64,000 bases of DNA from NCBI GenBank assembly GCA_945860295.1, contig CAMAQH010000013.1:1-64000 (forward strand), in the 5' to 3' direction. Source of the stretch: Prosthecobacter debontii (lineage in GTDB: Bacteria > Verrucomicrobiota > Verrucomicrobiia > Verrucomicrobiales > Verrucomicrobiaceae). Of the stretch, positions 24,693 through 40,409 are shown piece after piece (position 1 is the stretch's first letter; every line of letters starts with the position of its first letter). The notes beneath the pieces are model-generated. The model made no database searches, had not been told where the DNA came from, and saw only the letters and a program-made list of their open reading frames with translations. The translations under genes were made by a program, and so were the position numbers.

Positions 24693-27332
24693 ATGGCGGA
24701 ACGATATAAAATTTATGAACAACTTGGCGCAGGTGGCGTCGGTGCTGTTTATCGTGCCTACGACAATGAACTGAAACGCTGGGTAGCCATCAAGCGCCTG
24801 ATGACCAACAGCGAAATCGGCGGTGATGAGAAACTAGCCACCGATCTACGCCGAGAAGCAGATGCACTCGCGGCGATGCGTAACCCAAACGTCGTCACCA
24901 TTTTTGATGTATCCAGTGATGCCGAAGGACTCTTCATCGTTATGGAACTGCTGGAGGGTGAAGATCTGGCTGATGTCGTGGCGCGCGGGCCACTGCATTA
25001 TGATGACTTTAAAGAGCTGGCTTCTCAAACGATGGAGGCACTGCTCGGTGCTCATCAGAGACATATTTTGCATCGGGACATCAAGCCTGAGAACATCAAA
25101 GTAGAGCGCCTACCCGGCGGGCGGATGCAATCCAAAATCATCGACTTTGGCCTAGCTCGGACAGGCATGAGGGCGCGCAAGCAAACGGAAGATCAGTCCG
25201 GCACGGTCATGGGTTCCATTTACTACATGGCTCCAGAGCAGCTTACGCGTCAACCTGTGGACGAAAGAACTGACCTCTATGCCATAGGCTGTGTGTATTA
25301 TGAAGCACTCTCAGGCCGAAAAGCATTCGATGGCGATACGATCTCAACCGTAATCGACAAGCACATCAATCATGACCTTGTCCCACTGCATATCGTGGCA
25401 CCGCATGTGCCGCCATGGCTCGGAGCATGGGTCCTGCGTTTGATGGCGCAGAAGCCTGATGAGCGGCCCGCCAATGCCCAACAAGCGATTGAGGAATTTC
25501 GGGCTTGGGAAAAAATGGCCGCGGCACCCCAAATGATGCCTTGGATGCCAGCAGGCTACGGACAGCCCATGTATCCCGGCACAGGCAGCGTGCCACTCGG
25601 ACCGCATGGCGCTACGACGACCAGCGTGCCTGTGCAGCCTATGTATTACCAGACTGGGCAGGTACCACCCGTCTATTACCAGACTGGGCAAGAACCGTCG
25701 GTTTATTACCAAACCGGGCAATTGCCTCCGGTTGAAGTCGTTTCTCAGCAAGAGCCTGTCGTGGAAGTACCGGTCGCGGCACCTCAGCTTAACGCTCTTT
25801 CCAGCCTCCAGACAGCCGCTCCGAAAAAAGTACAGCCAGCACCACGCCCCTACAGGGCCACCCCGGCGCAGCACTCCACAAGTCGTATTGATCCTCAGAT
25901 CAGAAAGTATGCGCTCATCGGCATAGGTGCTTTAGTCATCGTAGTCATCGGCTTCACATTCGTAGGGGGTGACAAGAAAGGCGCTGGTAATGATGTGGCC
26001 ACAGCGACTTCAGTTCTAGGCTCAAAAGGACCCGCGAAGCCCATCTTTGAACTGCCCAGTGAGCGCCCATTTCCGCCGCAAGATGACGACTTGGTTTTGC
26101 ATTTAATATCCGACGTTGGACAGTCAAAAAACTCCAAAGACACCACAGGTCGGCCTAACACCGCGAACGTCAATGACCCCATCTATGAATGGCATGACCT
26201 GTCCCCACGCGGTCAAAGCAACATCATGCGGGCCTTTCAAAACTCCACAGCCTACGCCCCATTGCGACAGAACTGGAACCATCCAAACGTCAAGAGTGGT
26301 CGCAGTGTCTTTGATTTCCATCCTCGGGGCGGCAAGCCAAGTGCCCTTTTGCTAACGGACTCAGGCAGTGAGTCCAGTCAGTTTCCTTTCGGCAGTGCAA
26401 GTGTGAAAGGCCCCAAAGGTCTAACTTTTAGCATCGTTTTCCAAACAGATGCCGCCATGCTACCAACGCGTGTCATGACTCTGCTCTCCGCCAATGGCAG
26501 CAGCGTCTCCCTTTCCGTGAATAAGGATAAGCAACTCGTGGCAGAATTCCGCAATGACGCCGGAGCCACGAGCACCATCACCAGCAAAGATGTCGATGGA
26601 GCTATGCCAATGATCGCTATTCTTGTTTGGGATGCGGAAACGGGCACCACTTCATTGCGAGCACGAGACGGTTCAGACAAAGGCTTCAAGGCCGATGGCG
26701 CAAAGGTCACTGCCCCGAGCCAACCCTTGACCCGCCTACAGCTTGGCCGCGTCTCTGATGCCGCAGGCACGACTGTCGGAATTTCAGATCAGTTCACAGG
26801 TATGCTGGCAGAGGTAGAGATGTATGCCAGCGCACTGCGCACCGATCAGTTGCAACTTTTGGAAGGAGCAAACCTGAAGAATTTCTACTTCAATTTCATC
26901 CCTCAGCTCGCCCAACGATTGAAGACCAAGCTGCCGCAGATCGAGCCACGCAGCGCCTGGAAATTCCAACCCAGTCAAAACGCAGGCGAGGCCATAAAAG
27001 TCGCCGATGGCAATGTGACCAGCCGTTGGACGACTAAAACACGGCAAACCCCAGGGCAATGGTTCCAGGTGGAACTGCCAGAAGACCAGGAGGTAGCCGG
27101 CCTAGCCCTCGACTGCCAAGCTGCGACTGGCGATTACCCGCGCAAGTATCTCGTGGAAGTCTCCAGCGATGGCAGCAACTGGTCCAAAGTGAACGAAGGC
27201 GACGGCAAAGGTGCACTCATCGAGATCATCTTCAGCACGCCACAAAGAGCACGCTTTGTGCGGATCACCCAAAAAAGCACCACGCCAACGAATGATTGGG
27301 CCATCTGCGAGATGGTGCTTTTCAAGAAGTGA
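24693..27332 (+). CDS. Membrane Ser/Thr protein kinase with LamG and F5/8-C sensor domains
   Basis: An 879-residue Hanks-type kinase from ATG 24693. The cytoplasmic kinase domain (residues 5-275) has all motifs: GAGGVGAVYRAYD, the VAIK lysine at 34, HRDIKPEN at 127, DFGLA at 151 and APEQL. A Pro/Gln/Tyr linker (about 285-400) contains three YYQTGQ repeats. A single membrane span lies at about 405-427. The outer part has a LamG-like domain (about 480-720) and a C-terminal F5/8 type C (discoidin-like) domain (about 760-879; AGLALDCQAATGDYPRKYLV). It probably senses an external sugar or polymer and phosphorylates cytoplasmic targets; ligand and targets are unknown. The htrA-like gene follows 91 bases later. 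Confidence 0.9.
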   Translation: MAERYKIYEQLGAGGVGAVYRAYDNELKRWVAIKRLMTNSEIGGDEKLATDLRREADALAAMRNPNVVTIFDVSSDAEGLFIVMELLEGEDLADVVARGPLHYDDFKELASQTMEALLGAHQRHILHRDIKPENIKVERLPGGRMQSKIIDFGLARTGMRARKQTEDQSGTVMGSIYYMAPEQLTRQPVDERTDLYAIGCVYYEALSGRKAFDGDTISTVIDKHINHDLVPLHIVAPHVPPWLGAWVLRLMAQKPDERPANAQQAIEEFRAWEKMAAAPQMMPWMPAGYGQPMYPGTGSVPLGPHGATTTSVPVQPMYYQTGQVPPVYYQTGQEPSVYYQTGQLPPVEVVSQQEPVVEVPVAAPQLNALSSLQTAAPKKVQPAPRPYRATPAQHSTSRIDPQIRKYALIGIGALVIVVIGFTFVGGDKKGAGNDVATATSVLGSKGPAKPIFELPSERPFPPQDDDLVLHLISDVGQSKNSKDTTGRPNTANVNDPIYEWHDLSPRGQSNIMRAFQNSTAYAPLRQNWNHPNVKSGRSVFDFHPRGGKPSALLLTDSGSESSQFPFGSASVKGPKGLTFSIVFQTDAAMLPTRVMTLLSANGSSVSLSVNKDKQLVAEFRNDAGATSTITSKDVDGAMPMIAILVWDAETGTTSLRARDGSDKGFKADGAKVTAPSQPLTRLQLGRVSDAAGTTVGISDQFTGMLAEVEMYASALRTDQLQLLEGANLKNFYFNFIPQLAQRLKTKLPQIEPRSAWKFQPSQNAGEAIKVADGNVTSRWTTKTRQTPGQWFQVELPEDQEVAGLALDCQAATGDYPRKYLVEVSSDGSNWSKVNEGDGKGALIEIIFSTPQRARFVRITQKSTTPTNDWAICEMVLFKK
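25644..25733 (+). repeat. Three 30-bp tandem repeats (YYQTGQxPPV) in the kinase linker
   Basis: Three consecutive 30-bp units each encode YYQTGQ followed by a short proline-containing tail (VPPV, EPSV, LPPV). The first two are nearly identical in DNA, which suggests recent slippage or duplication. They lie in the cytoplasmic juxtamembrane linker and could be a flexible spacer or tyrosine-rich docking segment. Confidence 0.85.
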
Positions 27333-27423
27333 TCCGACGGGATCATCTCGTCTGACGCCCTTGCCATTCTTCGTGCTCCGCGCATCATTGCGCACTCTTC
27401 TCGTCATTCATCTTTCGTCATTT

Positions 27424-28608
27424 ATGGAAACTCTCCGCCGTCTTCTCTTCGCCATCACCGTCTTCATCGTTGCTTCACTTGTCTTCTCCTTCTGGCGGAA
27501 TGGGCAGGAGGGATACGGTCTGCTTAATTTCCTGAAAGGCGAGTCACCCAAGGATGAGAAATTCACCCCAGCCCCTGCGCCTAAAATCGATCTCAATGAC
27601 GTGAAAATTCTGTCGGCAATGAATGATGAATTTTCCAAACTCTCCGCAGCGGTGCTGCCCAGCGTCGTCAGTGTGAATACCAAAACGCTGCGCCAGGGGC
27701 AGACGGCGTGGCACCCCTTCTTCGGCCTCGTCAGTGGTCGCCCTCAGGTCATCCCTGGCCTCGGCTCAGGCGCCATCATTTCTAAAGAAGGCCACATCAT
27801 CACCAACTACCACGTCATCGCCGATGTCAGCGAGGTCATGATCACCACCAATGACAACAAGCAATACACGGCACACATCCTCGGAGCCAGCCGCGAGCGC
27901 GACATCGCGCTACTAAAGATTGATGGGGCCAAAAAGGATTTCCCCGCACTCACCTTTGGCAATAGCGACGCCGCTAAAGTCGGCCAACTCGTCTTCGCCG
28001 TCGGCAACCCTTTTGGTCTAAGCGGCACTGTGACGCAGGGCATCATCAGTGCCCGTGACCGGCATCTCAGCGACGCCCAGCTCAATTATTTGCAAACCGA
28101 CACTGTCATCAATCCCGGCAACTCCGGCGGACCTCTCGTGAACATTCTGGGTCAAATCATCGGCATCAATGTCGCCATTTATCGTGGCGATGAAAACGTC
28201 CGAGCCTGGCAGGGCATCGGACTTGCTGTGCCGTCCAATGATGCCAAGTCCGTCATCGACGCCATCCTGGCGCAGACCAAAAATGGAGCACCCGCCAAGG
28301 CCGCAGGCATGGGCTACCTCGGACTCGAACTCAGCGCTGAACCCGTCGCCATCGACGCGGGACTCGGCGTTGCGCAAACCGGTGCCTTCATCGCCAATCT
28401 CGATCCACAGTCACCCAGCGTCGCCGCCGGTCTCGCCCCTGGTGATGTCATCACCGCCCTCAATGGAGGCCCCTTCCGCACCCCACGCGAACTCCTCAAC
28501 CTCATCCAAGCCCTCGTTCCAGGATCAAAGGCAAACGTCACCGTGCTGCGGAATGGTCAGCTTATCGAGATCCCCGTCACCATCGGCCAGCGGCCTGATG
28601 TGCGGTGA
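27424..28608 (+). CDS. HtrA/DegP-type periplasmic serine protease with PDZ domain
   Basis: A 394-residue protein from ATG 27424, chosen because it begins a hydrophobic anchor (METLRRLLFAITVFIVASLV); codons open further upstream look non-coding. The S1C protease core has HIITNYHVIADV (His), RERDIALLKIDG (Asp) and INPGNSGGPLVN (Ser nucleophile), followed by one PDZ domain (about residues 290-390; DPQSPSVAAGLAPGDVITAL). With a single PDZ and an N-terminal anchor it resembles DegS/HhoA-like quality-control or regulatory proteases. It lies downstream of the kinase gene in the same direction. Envelope protein quality control is the expected role. Confidence 0.9.
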   Translation: METLRRLLFAITVFIVASLVFSFWRNGQEGYGLLNFLKGESPKDEKFTPAPAPKIDLNDVKILSAMNDEFSKLSAAVLPSVVSVNTKTLRQGQTAWHPFFGLVSGRPQVIPGLGSGAIISKEGHIITNYHVIADVSEVMITTNDNKQYTAHILGASRERDIALLKIDGAKKDFPALTFGNSDAAKVGQLVFAVGNPFGLSGTVTQGIISARDRHLSDAQLNYLQTDTVINPGNSGGPLVNILGQIIGINVAIYRGDENVRAWQGIGLAVPSNDAKSVIDAILAQTKNGAPAKAAGMGYLGLELSAEPVAIDAGLGVAQTGAFIANLDPQSPSVAAGLAPGDVITALNGGPFRTPRELLNLIQALVPGSKANVTVLRNGQLIEIPVTIGQRPDVR

Positions 28609-33781: not shown

Positions 33782-34228
33782 CCGAGTCAGCCCATTCCAA
33801 AGCTGATCTTGGTTAGAATCGACTCCCGCCTCGTTCTAGCGGTAAAAACTCCGCAGTGCCCGATTCAAGACCATCACCGCAGGATCGAATCAGCCACAAA
33901 GCCACGCCGCCGAGGTCGAAAAGCACGAAAAACCGAAACAGCGCGAGTTGATCCTGCGACGTAAGGGATCGGGGAAAAGCTTTCTCCTCAGGCTTCCAGG
34001 ACTTCAGGAGGTAGTTTGATCAGTTTCCGCCTAGCAGACAAGACTTTCGCGGCATGGCTGAGACGGACGGCGAATCTTTAAGGTGTCGTGGATGCCCAAG
34101 TCTCTAAAAACTGGAATCGCTAAAATATGAATTGCCTAGCGCCGGCCTCTGATGACCAAACATAAAATTATTCTGGTAAATTCGAATAAAATATTGCTCT
34201 CTGATCGATCATTTCGTAAACCTAAAGC
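33782..34228. other. 450-base gap, nothing recognised
   Basis: Between tyrA and a broken membrane-protein gene. Open frames are short and show no family features. Base composition shifts toward AT near 34.1 kb, marking the left edge of the AT-richer Sel1 region. No terminator hairpin with a clear T-run was found after tyrA. Confidence 0.4.
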
Positions 34229-34675
34229 ATGCGTCTAAATGGTTGGCACCGCCTCTGGCTACTCAGTTTTGTTTTGTGGTCGAGCTTAGTTGTAACCTAT
34301 TGGGTCGCTGAGATTCGTTGGCCAAAGGCCGACCTCGGTGTTGCTCATCAAGAAAAGTTTCTGAAAGCAATAATCCCCCAGAGTGCATTGTGGTCTTCCG
34401 ATTTAATACAAGACAAAAAAGCCAAGTGTGAAATCAAAATGCCCAACGGCTAAACCTTGCTACTGGTGGATGATGGTCATATGGATGATAATGGTTCAAA
34501 TGGCAAATTAGCAGCTGAAAGTTACTGGCAAGCTGTGATGGCGGAAACAAAACAACAGCAGCAAGAATACATGGAATCTATATTGGGTGTTTGCCTAATC
34601 CCTTCTTTCATCATTTTACTCGTGGGCCACGGAATTGCATGGGTTCGCCGTGGATTCCGAGCAACGGTGGCCTAA
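34229..34675 (+). pseudogene. Small two-span membrane protein interrupted by a TAA
   Basis: From ATG 34229 the frame encodes MRLNGWHRLWLLSFVLWSSL (first membrane span), a hydrophilic loop ending CEIKMPNG, then TAA at 34451-34453. The same frame continues TLLLVDDGH and a loop to a second span (SILGVCLIPSFIILLVGHGI) ending AWVRRGFR. The W-x-R-L-W start and WVRRGF end are typical of a small bacterial inner-membrane family of unknown role with exactly this two-span topology. A single nonsense codon splits an otherwise full-length gene. The two halves might be separate short proteins, but that is less likely. Confidence 0.6.
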
Positions 34676-34864
34676 TCTGCGAGCACTGCCTCTTGGTCAG
34701 ACCTAGTTCTATCTCGTTAAATCCACCTTTGGAAATCATCAAACTGCCAACAACTTTGGTTCTTGCTGTTATTCAGCAAGACTGTAAAACGACTTCATTT
34801 GTGGTGAAGGTTAATAAATTATAGTCGAGGGCATTTATAGTTTGCGAATAGATCACTTATTCAC

Positions 34865-35620
34865 TTACTGAGTCACAATTGGTTTCCATTCGCGTGATAA
34901 TCTTTGAGCCTCTGTGATCTGTTCAGAAGTCATTGTTTTCTCTACCATGGAACGACACTTCGCTGAGTCGTCTGATCCCTGCGCCGCAGCTAGGTTATGC
35001 CATTTGTAGGCTTTCACTGCATCTTTGGGAACACCTGAACCCGAAACATAACATTGACCCAGTAAATACTGTGCCATCATATTACCTTGCTCAGCGGATT
35101 TACAGAACCACTTTACGGCTTCGACAGCATCTTTAGGCATGCCTACACCAAAAGCGTAACTCGCACCCAATGATAATTGTGCCTCCGAATAGCCTTGTTC
35201 CGCTGATTTGCGGTACCATCCTGCGGCCATTACCGGATCTTTAGACATGCCTTTACCAAGTTCGTAACTTAGGCCTAAATAATACTGTGCTGCCTTATTG
35301 CCTTGTTGGGCTGATTTACGGAACCACTTTACCGCCTCTACTTCATCTTTGAGAACGCCTTCTCCCTTGTCATAAATGTAGCCCAAAGCAAATTGTGCAT
35401 TCGCTAAGCCTTGTTCGGCTGATTTACGGAACCACTTTACAGCCTCTACCTCATCTTTGGGCACGCCTGCACCTAACTTGTAACTGAAGCCTAAAGCTAA
35501 TTGTGCAGCAGCATCACCTTGCTCTGCTTTGGTTCGTTTTTCATCAAGGGATTGACTGAAAACTGATTCACTGTTCAAAATCAAAAAAAGCAGAAGACAC
35601 GTAAATAAACAAATTTTCAT
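34865..35620 (-). CDS. Secreted Sel1-repeat protein
   Basis: A 251-residue exported protein: signal peptide (about residues 1-22) then five 36-residue Sel1-like repeats (pattern A-E-Q-G-x-x-x-A-Q-x-x-L-G...G-V-P-K-D-x-V-E-A-V-K-W-F-R-K-S) and a tail with TMTSEQITEAQRLSREW. Sel1 repeats stack into a superhelix that binds other proteins. The same tail motif (TMTREQMAEGQKLAREF) ends the Sel1 array of the divergent Sel1-protease, so the two are paralogues. Sel1 proteins of this kind act in envelope signalling, adhesion or host interaction; the partner here is unknown, though the protease is an obvious candidate. Confidence 0.88.
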   Translation of the reverse strand: MKICLFTCLLLFLILNSESVFSQSLDEKRTKAEQGDAAAQLALGFSYKLGAGVPKDEVEAVKWFRKSAEQGLANAQFALGYIYDKGEGVLKDEVEAVKWFRKSAQQGNKAAQYYLGLSYELGKGMSKDPVMAAGWYRKSAEQGYSEAQLSLGASYAFGVGMPKDAVEAVKWFCKSAEQGNMMAQYLLGQCYVSGSGVPKDAVKAYKWHNLAAAQGSDDSAKCRSMVEKTMTSEQITEAQRLSREWKPIVTQ

Positions 35621-35804
35621 CGTCTGAGTTTAATAAGCAAGAATCCCTTAGCAAGGTTAACAATGGGGTTTAAACCTCAAGCAGCTACGATTACAGACCC
35701 GCACAAGGACTTTCACAAGTCACAGCATTAAAGACTCCCAAAGGAAACCATCAACGTCAGATGAAAGGCATGGAAATCAACTTTAAGCATACTATGCTCA
35801 GTAT
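35621..35804. promoter_or_regulatory. Divergent promoter region of the Sel1 pair
   Basis: An AT-rich 184-base spacer between the two divergent Sel1 genes. It must hold both promoters; the word ATACTATGCTCAGTAT just before the right-hand ATG is a short inverted repeat (ATACT/AGTAT) that also resembles a -10 box. No other clear element was seen. Confidence 0.3.
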
Positions 35805-37814
35805 ATGAAAATGCCTAATTGTCTCATGCTTCTTTTCATTTGTTTGGTGTTCACATTGAACCAACTAGCCAAAGCGGCGGAAAAGACCAACCTATCTGAT
35901 GACTCCGCTAAAGATCTGAAAAGCATCGAAGTGTTGCAAGCGGAAGCGGAAAGAGGCGATGCCAAAGCGCAATTCATGCTTGGTCTAAGATGCACGTCTG
36001 GTCGAGGCATTACGAAAGATGAAGTCGAAGCGGGGAAGTGGTATCGCAAAGCTGCTGAGCAGGGTTATGTCTTTGCTCAGCTCTGCATAGGTATAAGCTT
36101 TGCCGAAGGCCGAGGCGTTATCAAAGATTATGTCGAAGCGGTGAAATGGTTTCGCAAAGCTGCTGCGCAGGGCAATGCAAGGGCACAATTTGAACTCGCT
36201 CGTTGCTACGCCCAAGGACGAGGGGTGGAAAAAGATAAGGTAGAGGTAGCAAGGTGGTTCCGCAAAGCTGCTGAGCAAGGTGATGAGCATGCGCAATACG
36301 AGCTGGGATGTTGCTACACACTCGGCGTAGGACTTACGAAGGATTTAGCGGAAGCGGAGAAGTGGTATCGCAAAGCTGCTGACCAAGGCTTTGCCAAGGC
36401 TTATATTAGCCTTGGTGATTACTATTTCTTGGGGGGAAGGGATTATGTAGAAGCGGAGAGGTGGTATCGCAAAGCTGCTGAGCAAAGTGAATTGAATGCG
36501 CATGCGCAAATGAACCTTGGTTTTATGTATGCTGATGGCCTCGGCGTAACCAAAGATGAAGTCGAAGCGGTGAAATGGCTCCGCAAAGCTGCTGACCAAG
36601 GTGAGGTGGATGCGCAATTAAACTTGGGAGGAATATATTCTGCAGGCGGCAAAGGCGTGCCCAAGGATTGTGTAGAAGCGATAAAATGGTATCGCAAGGC
36701 TGCTGATCAGGGACTTCATGCGGCGCAAAATAACCTTGGGTATATGTATTCTAGAGGCGAAGGCGTGCCCAAAGATTATGTCGAAGCGGTGAAATGGTTT
36801 CGCAAAGCTGCTGATCTGGAATTCCATGGTGCGCAATACAACCTTGGTAGCATGTATGCTGATGGCCAAGGAGTGACCAAGGATTATGTCGAAGCGGGGA
36901 AGTGGTATCGCAAAGCTGCTGAGCAAGGCTTTGATTTGGCGCAATACGCTCTTGGTGAGATCTATTTTAATGGCAAAGGCGTTCCGAAAGACTTTGTGGA
37001 GGCTTACAAGTGGCTATTACTCGCGGCAGCGCAGGATAATGAGTCTGCTAGTAAATTAGTTCTTACTTTAGAAGGAACTATGACACGAGAGCAGATGGCT
37101 GAAGGTCAAAAACTCGCCCGTGAGTTCAAGCCAGAAGATAAGTCGCAAAAGAATGACATTACGCGTGAGAATCTTCAAGAATCCAACCCAGAAGTATCGG
37201 GCAGCGGCTTCTTTATCACAGATGACGGCTATTTTATCACCAATCAACATGTCGCTGGCAGTGGAGCAAATGTGCGTATTCACACCGCATCGGGTATCAT
37301 TCCAGCCAAAGTGATTAAAGTGGATGAGCAGAGTGATCTCACACTACTAAAGGCGGAAGGGAAGTTTTCAGAACTGCCAGTCATCTTGAGTCGAGGCGTG
37401 CAGCTAGGTGCCACGGTTGCGACTGTAGGCTTTCCAAACATCGGTCTGCAAGGATTCTCTCCCAAACTAGCTAAAGGAGAAATTGCTAGTCTTGCGGGTA
37501 TTCAAGATGATGCGCGCCACTTTCAGATCAGCGTTCCTATGCAGCCTGGCAACTCAGGTGGTGCACTTGTTGATGAACGAGGAAATGTGATTGGCGTCGT
37601 GGTGGCCAAACTGAGTCAGGAAGCCGCTTTGGCGACGAGTGGCTCATTCGCGGAAAATGTGAATTATGCCATCAAGAGCAGCTATCTATTGAGCTTCCTT
37701 GAATCTGTCCCTGAAGTGGCAGCCAAGCTGAAAGAGCCAAACACGATGCAGCGTGACTTTGAGACCACCATCAAGGATGTGGAGCAGGCTGCAGTTCTTG
37801 TGCTGGTTTATTGA
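35805..37814 (+). CDS. Sel1-repeat protein fused to a trypsin-like (S1C) serine protease
   Basis: A 669-residue exported protein: signal peptide (residues 1-25), ten Sel1-like repeats of about 36 residues (about 48-415), a tail (TMTREQMAEGQKLAREF), then a C-terminal trypsin/HtrA-type protease (about 460-650). The triad is visible: His482 in FITNQHVAGSG, Asp511 in EQSDLTLLK and Ser584 in QPGNSGGALVDE. No PDZ domain follows, so the Sel1 array probably replaces PDZ as the substrate- or partner-binding part. DNA of adjacent repeats is very similar, which implies recent internal duplication. It is divergent from a Sel1-only paralogue. Substrates are unknown; regulated proteolysis in the periplasm is inferred. 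Confidence 0.9.
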   Translation: MKMPNCLMLLFICLVFTLNQLAKAAEKTNLSDDSAKDLKSIEVLQAEAERGDAKAQFMLGLRCTSGRGITKDEVEAGKWYRKAAEQGYVFAQLCIGISFAEGRGVIKDYVEAVKWFRKAAAQGNARAQFELARCYAQGRGVEKDKVEVARWFRKAAEQGDEHAQYELGCCYTLGVGLTKDLAEAEKWYRKAADQGFAKAYISLGDYYFLGGRDYVEAERWYRKAAEQSELNAHAQMNLGFMYADGLGVTKDEVEAVKWLRKAADQGEVDAQLNLGGIYSAGGKGVPKDCVEAIKWYRKAADQGLHAAQNNLGYMYSRGEGVPKDYVEAVKWFRKAADLEFHGAQYNLGSMYADGQGVTKDYVEAGKWYRKAAEQGFDLAQYALGEIYFNGKGVPKDFVEAYKWLLLAAAQDNESASKLVLTLEGTMTREQMAEGQKLAREFKPEDKSQKNDITRENLQESNPEVSGSGFFITDDGYFITNQHVAGSGANVRIHTASGIIPAKVIKVDEQSDLTLLKAEGKFSELPVILSRGVQLGATVATVGFPNIGLQGFSPKLAKGEIASLAGIQDDARHFQISVPMQPGNSGGALVDERGNVIGVVVAKLSQEAALATSGSFAENVNYAIKSSYLLSFLESVPEVAAKLKEPNTMQRDFETTIKDVEQAAVLVLVY

Positions 37815-37843
37815 GCTCCACAGATGCCATGCAATGACACTGA

Positions 37844-37873
37844 CATTGAGGCAATCAGGGGAATGCCTCAATG
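37844..37873. terminator. Hairpin between convergent genes
   Basis: CATTGAGGCA and TGCCTCAATG form a perfect 10-bp stem with a 10-base loop, 30 bases after the Sel1-protease stop and before the convergent lipoprotein gene. The following T-run is weak (GTCTTTC), so it is a probable rather than certain terminator. Confidence 0.5.
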
Positions 37874-37918
37874 GTCTTTCGCTCCCATATCTCATCACAA
37901 GCAGTTATCGTCCGCGTT

Positions 37919-38389
37919 CTATTGGCTTTTAGTCCTAACAAAAATAGCTTCTTGAATTTTAACAAATGCGTTTTGGTACGGCGTCGCTAATTCCACAGGT
38001 TTATCAGAACGTGATTTCATTCCGTATCCAGATGAGCTTTCAGATACATTTACAAAATTCAATCGAATGGATGACTTAGTCGAAGTGAACTCTTCAATGA
38101 ATGCTGTTGCTTCTGTATTGGACATGTAGCTTCCCATAAACATCACGTTTTTTGTGGGGCTAGCGGCTGAGATCAGACCCGTTTCAAAGCTCGCTGACTT
38201 TACGATATATCCTAGGTCCTGAAAGACTGAAAGCGCTGAAGCGAAAGCTATTTTTTTGGTGCATTCAAACTCCTTTCTCTGAAAGGATTGAAGCTCTAGG
38301 CCGGACTTAGTTGGCCCGCCTGTAACGCATCCTGTGAGAGCACTAGCTAAAAGGATTGCAGAGAAAATTAATGGTGTGTGTGTTGTCAT
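37919..38389 (-). CDS. Small lipoprotein of a conserved family of unknown function
   Basis: A 156-residue lipoprotein: signal with lipobox LTGC (MTTHTPLIFSAILLASALTG then Cys20). The mature part (QSFQRKEFECTKKIAFASAL, SVFQDLGYIVKSASFETGLI, SAASPTKN) follows a pattern I know from a widespread family of envelope lipoproteins, in which a residue block R-x-F-x-T/C is followed by A-x-x-x-L-Q-D-L-G-(Y/F). The role is unknown. It starts 5 bases after the stop of the upstream BamE-like lipoprotein gene, so the two form an operon, and it converges on the Sel1-protease gene. Confidence 0.75.
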   Translation of the reverse strand: MTTHTPLIFSAILLASALTGCVTGGPTKSGLELQSFQRKEFECTKKIAFASALSVFQDLGYIVKSASFETGLISAASPTKNVMFMGSYMSNTEATAFIEEFTSTKSSIRLNFVNVSESSSGYGMKSRSDKPVELATPYQNAFVKIQEAIFVRTKSQ

Positions 38390-38394
38390 TTTAA

Positions 38395-38766
38395 TTAGAA
38401 GCTAGAATAAAGACTATTGAAGTCAGAAACGACTTTTTGTGCATTGAATTTAATGATGAGTGTCATCGCCTTGGAAGACTGCTCAAACCCACTTACAGAA
38501 CCACCAAACAGCAATAGCGTTCCATAGGCCTCCGATCCTCTGGATGATGAGGCATGGCGTTGATAGGTCCACACTTCATGTCCTTGTGCGTCCAAAGAAG
38601 TTAAATTCGGCGAACCAAACGTTTCAATCACTTGCGTTTGAGTAGTAACCCCCTTCACTAAAGTCATTTGAACTTGTCCGTGAGTGAGGCTTGAATTTCG
38701 TGTCGGGGCTGTAGATCTGCAATTTGAACAAATTAAACACAAGGCCAATAAGAATGTTAATTTCAC
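38395..38766 (-). CDS. Small lipoprotein with BamE/SmpA-like domain
   Basis: A 123-residue lipoprotein with a short signal (MKLTFLLALCLICSNC; Cys16 is the likely lipid-modified residue). The mature part has the SmpA/OmlA-like motif VKGVTTQTQVIETFGSPNLT followed by a Trp-Tyr strand (EVWTYQRHASS), the usual opening of the small two-helix, three-strand fold shared by BamE and many unrelated lipoproteins. True BamE helps outer-membrane protein assembly; this one more likely has another role. First gene of a two-lipoprotein operon in the AT-richer region. Confidence 0.75.
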   Translation of the reverse strand: MKLTFLLALCLICSNCRSTAPTRNSSLTHGQVQMTLVKGVTTQTQVIETFGSPNLTSLDAQGHEVWTYQRHASSSRGSEAYGTLLLFGGSVSGFEQSSKAMTLIIKFNAQKVVSDFNSLYSSF

Positions 38767-39068
38767 AAGTATGTAGTGGGTTTAGAAAAATGAAGATTAG
38801 TCTTAGTATTTAAGGTATATAGAATTCAAGAAGATTACAAGCATTATTATCTTTTTGGTTTTGTGCGCAGACTGGACGCATGACCTCTGTTCTCTCTGTG
38901 ACTGCCTGTTGAAAACTGCCCTTACGGATGTCGAAGGAGCGGCTGAAAGGCTGAAGTTTGATGGAAGGAGGATATAGACGGGCTACGGAACACCCAGAAG
39001 ACGCGGAACCATGATTTCACCCCCATCATTTTGTCTTTTCCCTGGCCGAAGGACGACCAAAAGGCCCC

Positions 39069-39240
39069 CAAGTGGTCGAACAAAGAGGGAAAGTTTTGCT
39101 TTTTTTCCCCCAAGTGGTCGAACAAAGAGGGAAAGTTTTGCTTTTTTTCCCCCAAGTGGTCGAACAATGAGGGCAAGTTTTGCTTTTTTTCCCCCAAGTG
39201 GTCGAACAATGAGGGCAAGTTTTGCTTTTTTACCACCTCG
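39069..39240. repeat. 42-bp tandem repeat array (four copies plus a degenerate fifth)
   Basis: Units of 42 bp begin (at AAGTGGTCGAAC) near 39070, 39112, 39154 and 39196, with a divergent copy from about 39236 (TAATCGAAGAATGACC). Copies 1-2 share AAAGAGGGAAAG and copies 3-4 share AATGAGGGCAAG. Because 42 is a multiple of 3 and the unit lacks stops, several frames on both strands stay open through it; the minus frame would give repeated LFDHLGEKKQNLPS. Unique flanks have no gene features, so I treat it as a repeat, not a coding region. Confidence 0.9.
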
Positions 39241-39497: not shown

Positions 39498-40409
39498 TCA
39501 GGCGCCAGCCAAGGCTGAGCCACGGTTCAGGAGGTCCAGGAAACGCTGCTCGAAGGGTTCCTCGGCACCGCATTGCATGAAGTCGATCCGGTGGCTGGCG
39601 CACCCGCGAGAGAGTTCATCACAAAAGGCGTCAAAGGCGTCGGTGTAGCGCTGGACGTCACGGTGGGTGAGCCAGAAACGACGGCGCTCGCCGGTCTCGA
39701 CCTCCGCTAGTTCGACCTCACCTTCCAGGCTGGGCGTGCGCTCCTCGGGATGCAGGATTTGGAGAAAATGCACCTCACCCGGCCAGGAGGCGGCGCGCTT
39801 GATGGACTCGGTGGCGGTGCTGACATCCTTTCCGAAGAAATCTGAAATCACAAAGATGACGCCATAGCGCTGGCGAGTCGGGTGAAAGTCAGCAAAGCTG
39901 CGTTCGAGATCGGTGAGTCCACCGAACTTCAGTTGCGTGGCTGACTGGATGACTTTTTCGATATTTCCCTGCCCTCTGAGTGGCGGCAGCTCTTGATGGA
40001 TGGTGCCACCGAGCGAATAAAGACTGACACGCTGATGACCAGCCAAACCGAGATAGGCAAGCGCAACAGCGAAACGCAGGGCTTGTTTTCGTTTGTCGCC
40101 ATGAGGCTCGGCCATGGAACCACTGGTATCGACAAGGATGTGGAGATTGAGTTCCTGCGTCTCCTCATAGAGCCGCACAAAGAGCTTGTCTAACCGAGCA
40201 TAAAGTCGCCAGTCGATGGCTCGGTAATCTTCACGCGGTGTGTATTGGCGGTAGTCCTTGAACTCGCGCGTGTAGCCTGTGGCGGGAGTGGACTGTGACC
40301 CTTTGCGCATGAGTGAGCGGCGCTTCCGCAGACGCACCGCCAGTGAACGCAGCCGATCTAGAAAGGCGGCATCAAAGAGATCTTCACGTGCGAGGGGTGA
40401 GTCGGTCAC
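39498..40409 (-). CDS. DUF58 family protein (MoxR-associated, vWA-like)
   Basis: A 303-residue soluble DUF58 protein. Visible blocks: the family signature EFKDYRQYTPREDYRAIDWR near residue 50, ARLDKLFVRLYEETQELNLH, and an integrin-like metal site VDTSGSM near 93, with IFVISDFFG near 176. DUF58 proteins normally partner a MoxR AAA+ ATPase and vWA/BatA membrane proteins in chaperone-like or stress complexes. No MoxR gene is in this neighbourhood, so the operon appears split. The gene lies between a repeat-rich gap and an SDR gene on the same strand. Confidence 0.88.
   Translation of the reverse strand: MTDSPLAREDLFDAAFLDRLRSLAVRLRKRRSLMRKGSQSTPATGYTREFKDYRQYTPREDYRAIDWRLYARLDKLFVRLYEETQELNLHILVDTSGSMAEPHGDKRKQALRFAVALAYLGLAGHQRVSLYSLGGTIHQELPPLRGQGNIEKVIQSATQLKFGGLTDLERSFADFHPTRQRYGVIFVISDFFGKDVSTATESIKRAASWPGEVHFLQILHPEERTPSLEGEVELAEVETGERRRFWLTHRDVQRYTDAFDAFCDELSRGCASHRIDFMQCGAEEPFEQRFLDLLNRGSALAGA

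Follow-up and report, generated by a model that had tools for sequence, protein, structure and literature searches.

The window, a 64,000-nucleotide stretch of DNA from Prosthecobacter debontii, belongs to a 4.68-Mb draft genome of 75 contigs. One of its open reading frames (ORFs) encodes a 669-residue protein in which ten Sel1 repeats precede a trypsin-like domain, and a divergent ORF beside it encodes a Sel1-only protein of 251 residues (Table 1). The Pfam scan of the larger protein, referred to here as the fusion, returned ten Sel1 stretches (E = 3e-103) and one Trypsin_2 domain at residues 466-598 (E = 8e-22), and that of the smaller protein returned five Sel1 stretches (E = 4.5e-53). The corresponding PF08238 scores were 334.9 and 176.2 bits, with a gathering score of 30.7. 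The 251-residue protein was modeled as an all-helical solenoid (pLDDT 93.8). By inspection, a hydrophobic, signal-peptide-like stretch opens both proteins, and we infer that the fusion is probably exported.

Table 1 Features of the Sel1-protease locus, in window positions
Feature	Position	Strand	Basis
Sel1-protease fusion CDS, 669 aa	35805..37814	+	ORF, Pfam
Hydrophobic N-terminus, probable signal peptide	35805..35879	+	Inspection only
Ten Sel1 repeats (residues about 48-407)	35946..37025	+	Pfam, sequence
Capping helices with tail motif MTREQMAEGQKLAREFKP	37041..37124	+	Sequence, tail tree, AF2 model
Linker, residues 447-459, pLDDT <50	37143..37181	+	AF2 model
Trypsin_2 domain (residues 466-598)	37200..37598	+	Pfam
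Triad codons H482, D511, S584	37248, 37335, 37554	+	Sequence, homologue alignment
Conserved C-terminal helix and strand (residues 652-668), reaching the protein end	37758..37808	+	Family comparison, AF2 model
Sel1-only protein, 251 aa, five repeats, probable signal peptide	34865..35620	-	ORF, Pfam, model
Divergent intergenic region, 184 bp; promoter signal not above shuffles	35621..35804		Sigma-70 scan
Low-GC island	33850..39100		500-base GC windows
Small lipoprotein-like protein in low-GC island, GC3 0.38	37919..38389	-	ORF, GC3
BamE-like small lipoprotein (below Pfam cut-off) in low-GC island, GC3 0.40	38395..38766	-	Pfam, GC3

The catalytic residues of the fusion lie in the motifs NQHV (H482), SDLTLL (D511), and GNSGG (S584), all within stretches that can be aligned to HtrA proteases. 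The triad was compared across 75 protease-domain stretches, consisting of the window's own and those of loci L047-L119 that scored at least 60 bits. Among the stretches covering each position, histidine is kept in 65 of 65, aspartate in 67 of 67, and serine in 73 of 75; both serine exceptions are broken ORFs. By sequence, the nearest solved structures are HtrA1 and other HtrA proteases. Structural comparison with VIA-align matched the protease part to HtrA1 (3tjn; Z 21.5, rmsd 2.2, 161 residues), with the DegS and DegP rows near Z 20. These matches span about residues 455-640 of the fusion and barely reach residues 641-669. A Sel1-protease chain was not among the fold-search matches listed, which is a weak absence. 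The protease is predicted to have an HtrA-like fold, and judging from its sequence it is probably a catalytically competent serine protease. It has the fold and the triad of HtrA, DegP, and DegS but differs from them in lacking a PDZ domain, in scoring 82 bits against the Do-family model TIGR02037 (cut-off, 416 bits), and in carrying a short C-terminal helix-strand after the protease. No PDZ domain was found by Pfam in either the fusion or the 251-residue protein. The original prediction had described ten Sel1 repeats joined to an intact S1C triad (S1C being the label for HtrA/DegP/DegS proteases) without PDZ. The ORF, the Pfam scan, and the sequence bear this description out, and its protease half stands on triad conservation, the predicted fold, and Pfam. 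About 7 kb from the fusion, at 27211-28608, the window also encodes a conventional HtrA-type Trypsin_2 protein with one PDZ domain.

An AF2 model of the fusion, built on a 24-row alignment (mean pLDDT 89.5, pTM 0.60), runs in the order Sel1 solenoid, linker, trypsin-like domain, helix (residues 652-662), and final strand (663-668). The arm and the protease are separate, confident units around the linker, and their placement relative to each other is not predicted. Among solved structures, the arm was matched by VIA-align to the Sel1 protein LceB (8sxq; Z 33.3, 338 residues). Fusions were defined as ORFs containing at least two Sel1 repeats and a protease scoring >90 bits and were counted as distinct by their last 200 residues. 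Across the 27 distinct fusions so defined, the arm ranges from 2 to 16 Sel1 repeats ahead of the same protease module. An arm of variable length on a constant protease module fits a recruitment arm.

A scan of genome contigs with the protease domain yielded 73 loci. About 20 close loci are mostly from Verrucomicrobia by title, and others are from Planctomycetes, Bacteroidota, and some Proteobacteria; titles were used loosely because some loci look mis-binned. In three loci titled Klebsiella pneumoniae or Akkermansia muciniphila (L048, L049, and L052), the protease domain of the fusion is about 74% identical to that of the window; these are probably mis-named bins. The closest members are 70-89% identical in this domain. 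The family shares the signature QPGNSGG...ENVNYAIK, and an ENVNYAIK-like motif is present in 129 of 132 ORFs scoring >80 bits, a count that includes repeated copies of loci and copies of the window. Among ORFs whose C-terminus lies 81 to 140 residues past GNSGG, 75 of 82 show four hydrophobic residues in a row among their last 12; the fusion's own terminus, VLVLVY, is typical of the family in this respect.

The modules that accompany the protease vary. Sel1 is the companion in Verrucomicrobia and Planctomycetes, and MORN is the companion in Bacteroidota; among 39 scanned members of one alignment (A3), MORN_2 was found in 17 and MORN in 12. Other companions are LRR_5 (L181), a PQQ propeller after the protease (L066), Adhesin_E (L073), and DUF4124 (L088), and several same-genus homologues have an N-terminal region without Pfam recognition. 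At the start of one contig (L164:2-1498), the protease module is in frame with GAF_PdtaS, which could represent either a genuine sensor fusion or an artifact of the contig edge. One genome has two Sel1-protease fusions in the same orientation, separated by about 4 kb (L184 and L185; G240:C1:142111 and 146054), likely a tandem duplication.

Within the genus, the close form (protease at least 53% identical) occurs in 6 of 48 genomes (G000, G021 twice, G057, G010, G025, and G007), and in a draw across the phylum, 15 of 387 genomes had a match at E = 1e-25 or better. A peptide-pattern scan of viral contigs found no relative of the protease domain. In a phage collection, 32 records matched the whole fusion, all at <60% identity and none covering 80% of it, and the 10 matches listed cover the Sel1 region only; phage carriage was rejected on these grounds. 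The protease domain is found in 431 plasmid records, all at <60% identity, and the three plasmid homologues examined have no Pfam domain besides the protease. The distribution of the family is patchy, and the fusion belongs to a patchy, modular family of HtrA-fold, PDZ-less proteases. A larger proposal, which we hold only tentatively, is that these proteins form a class, spanning phyla and not described before, of exported HtrA-like proteases in which the PDZ domain has given way to an exchangeable recognition module on one side (Sel1, MORN, LRR, or PQQ propeller) and to a fixed C-terminal helix-strand, possibly a latch on the protease domain, on the other. Swaps of the arm would then retarget a single conserved catalytic module.

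Both genes lie in a region of low GC content (0.41-0.51 in 500-base windows at about 33.85-39.1 kb; flanks, 0.51-0.64). GC3 is 0.38 for the Sel1-only gene and 0.45 and 0.48 for the two halves of the fusion, and seven neighbors range from 0.59 to 0.73. Horizontal gain of the island is the simplest reading of this composition, and we infer such an origin from sequence. No recombinase was seen by eye among the ORFs of 30-43 kb, and no tRNA was found in the window. At the island edge, positions 39065-39231 contain a 42-bp unit repeated four times in tandem (copies 98% alike); a 31-base core of the unit occurs nowhere else in the draft genome with up to 3 mismatches allowed.

The genes around the island were also compared. 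The PDH neighbor is present in 43 of 47 genomes of the genus and the DUF58 neighbor in 45 of 47; they do not occur together in any of seven relative regions around either one. The PDH, DUF58, and small lipoprotein genes of the window are all missing from the seven other fusion loci that were examined. A conserved neighborhood was thus ruled out, since PDH and DUF58 are widespread in the genus and absent at those seven loci. The DUF58/VWA gene (39498-40409) encodes a VWA domain, is not part of the low-GC island, and recurs widely in same-genus genomes without a close fusion. Trypsin-like peptidases are reported to be employed by vWA-MoxR conflict systems (PMC7159879); this assignment was not adopted because the scanned neighbors look unrelated.

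The original prediction paired the two proteins as a protease and a matching noncatalytic partner or inhibitor that share a promoter region and should co-occur in relatives. The promoter claim is supported by position alone: the start codons are divergent and 184 bp apart, and a sigma-70 scan of 34700-38000 found 6 sites versus 4.1 (standard deviation, 1.9) in shuffles. Co-occurrence failed. Among the 27 distinct fusions in the loci gathered, the window's alone adjoins a separate divergent Sel1 gene; such a gene is found at none of the other 26, of which 17 had at least 1 kb upstream to inspect and 9 had less. At L047, the closest fusion, which lies on a 3.2-kb contig, 307 bp of upstream DNA could be inspected. 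The extra Sel1 ORF at L061 is the 5' part of the fusion there, sharing its strand and reading frame and severed from it by one TGA. The 251-residue protein was also used as a query against 15 genomes reached through the loci, which do not make up the full set of fusion carriers: 12 of the 15 loci are in the fusion list, L051 and L055 duplicate its entries L151 and L152, and L058, located at a contig end, contains the protease part only. The top match per genome ranged from 37 to 57% identity, and several of these matches were fusions themselves. In the partial assembly of the genome with the closest fusion (G446; protease 89% identical), the best non-fusion match was 50% identical.

The 251-residue divergent protein itself, with its five repeats and the tail motif that it has in common with the fusion, is as predicted according to the ORF, Pfam, and sequence. 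The tail is not particular to the pair. A profile hidden Markov model (HMM) made from the two window tails was run against ORFs with at least 3 repeats and at least 20 residues past the last repeat (9 short rows and 5 window rows excluded). At >8 bits it matched 20 of the 44 Sel1-only ORFs other than the window's and, among the remaining fusions, 14 of 23; the set was collected by similarity to the window proteins and so is not unbiased. A similar tail also ends C51, a Sel1 protein with a 276-residue frame elsewhere in the source genome. The tail was therefore ruled out as a tag of the pair. Mean repeat identity is 53% between the two proteins, 53% within the fusion, and 57% within the 251-residue protein. 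A tree built from the last repeats and the tail does not place the two proteins together, but its resolution is low: of its 40 inner branches, 9 are starred and 23 are open, and the row L186, labeled Sel1-only, is the window's own fusion, clipped by the locus end. Neither the repeat identities nor this poorly resolved tree supports recent duplication of the fusion arm. Together with adjoining Sel1 genes elsewhere, these results leave "paralogue" correct in a broad sense only.

We regard as quite improbable a model in which a divergent promoter region shared by the two genes drives expression of the Sel1-only protein and this protein serves the fusion protease specifically, as an inhibitor, adaptor, or decoy. 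The genes are adjacent and divergent, have similarly low GC3 (0.38 and 0.45-0.48), and encode two probably exported proteins. A precedent is IltA (PA3978), a periplasmic Sel1 protein reported to inhibit the envelope enzyme MltF, a lytic transglycosylase (PMC10746161). Like IltA, the 251-residue protein is small, probably exported, and Sel1-only; IltA, as that source presents it, targets a transglycosylase, whereas no enzyme target is implied for the 251-residue protein. Against such a partnership are the 26 other fusions without a divergent Sel1-only gene, the 50% match in the partial assembly of G446, the generic tail, repeat identity that is no greater across the proteins than within each, and the tail tree, low as its resolution is. 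At L073 (5917-8048), in a metagenome-assembled genome titled Proteobacteria, a protease module with Adhesin_E lies a short way upstream of a distinct Sel1 gene that has five repeats and the same orientation. This is the sole split-like arrangement among the 73 loci, and it makes a Sel1 partner in trans not absurd. The sequences do not imply that the Sel1-only protein binds the protease, and any such binding would be confined to the source genome.

Sel1 genes are abundant in this lineage. A search with the Sel1-only protein at a cut-off of E = 1e-30 gave matches in 45 of 47 same-genus genomes, up to 17 in each, and Sel1 ORFs adjoin one another without this protease at the same-genus loci L224, L225, and L226. 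Two same-genus loci (L225:6296-10687 and L187) encode very long Sel1 proteins with adjoining Sel1 ORFs (up to 20 repeats), and L187 has two tail motifs within one frame. This abundance, along with a close fusion in only 6 of 48 same-genus genomes, would suit a local repeat expansion in a Sel1-rich lineage that produced both the array and the Sel1-only gene, the pair being a passing one and the protease a generic housekeeping or nutritional secreted enzyme. We consider that account improbable, because the protease module and C-terminus are strongly conserved across phyla and the fusion is therefore not a random product. The best explanation of the Sel1-only gene is that it is one of the lineage's many Sel1 genes, adjoining the fusion within a low-GC island that was probably acquired horizontally.

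For the fusion itself, we give about even credence to an exported, competent HtrA-type protease that lacks a PDZ domain and has instead a long N-terminal Sel1 solenoid, joined through a flexible linker, and a short helix-strand at its C-terminus. The arm would most likely bind envelope proteins or a scaffold and present them to the protease or, alternatively, tether the enzyme at a site in the envelope, where it would cut. HtrA-type proteases are commonly regulated through oligomerization and PDZ domains. With PDZ missing and an arm of variable length present, that arm might instead be a regulatory lid or oligomerization module, governing active-site access or building a higher-order protease rather than choosing substrates. 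This seems unlikely: the AF2 linker is unstructured, and arms of 2 to 16 repeats beside proteases 70-89% identical in the closest members speak against a close-fitting lid. Substrate recruitment is the most likely role by analogy, and Sel1 arms could equally oligomerize or inhibit the enzyme.

As a recruitment arm, the fused solenoid would act in cis as the TPR adaptors NlpI and LbcA, reported to bring envelope substrates to Prc and CtpA, act in trans (PMC5686067, PMC8764530). NlpI-Prc and LbcA-CtpA likewise pair a helical-repeat solenoid with an envelope protease; as described in those sources, they use a separate TPR lipoprotein and a C-terminal processing protease, whereas here a Sel1 solenoid is fused to a Trypsin_2 protease of the HtrA type. 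SEL1L is reported to help select substrates in ERAD (PMC4746701). Bacterial metacaspases often carry Sel1 (40 sequences, 6.0%; PMC3501461), making the joining of Sel1 to peptidases a recurring theme.

A literature search, in which subscription journals were scarcely covered, found no functional study of a Sel1-HtrA protease, so the earlier claim that no such system had been studied holds to that extent. It does not extend to the architecture, since a trypsin-family domain and Sel1 repeats within one protein were already listed in a 2008 survey, reportedly by Tripathi and Sowdhamini. The protein listed there is Tryp-(Sel1)6, YP_374752.1 of Pelodictyon luteolum (PMC2605481). By its listed architecture, the protease comes first and six repeats follow, whereas in the fusion the repeats come first. 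The Sel1-protease architecture was thus noted in passing in 2008, and the patchy, modular family is shown here. A neighboring paralogue in a repeat-rich lineage is, by itself, not evidence of a partner. If the proposed reading is true, a widespread, unstudied group of envelope proteases would find or sense its targets through fused repeat modules rather than PDZ domains, and both the contribution of the Sel1 arm to the protease and the retargeting of one catalytic module by arm exchange would be directly testable.
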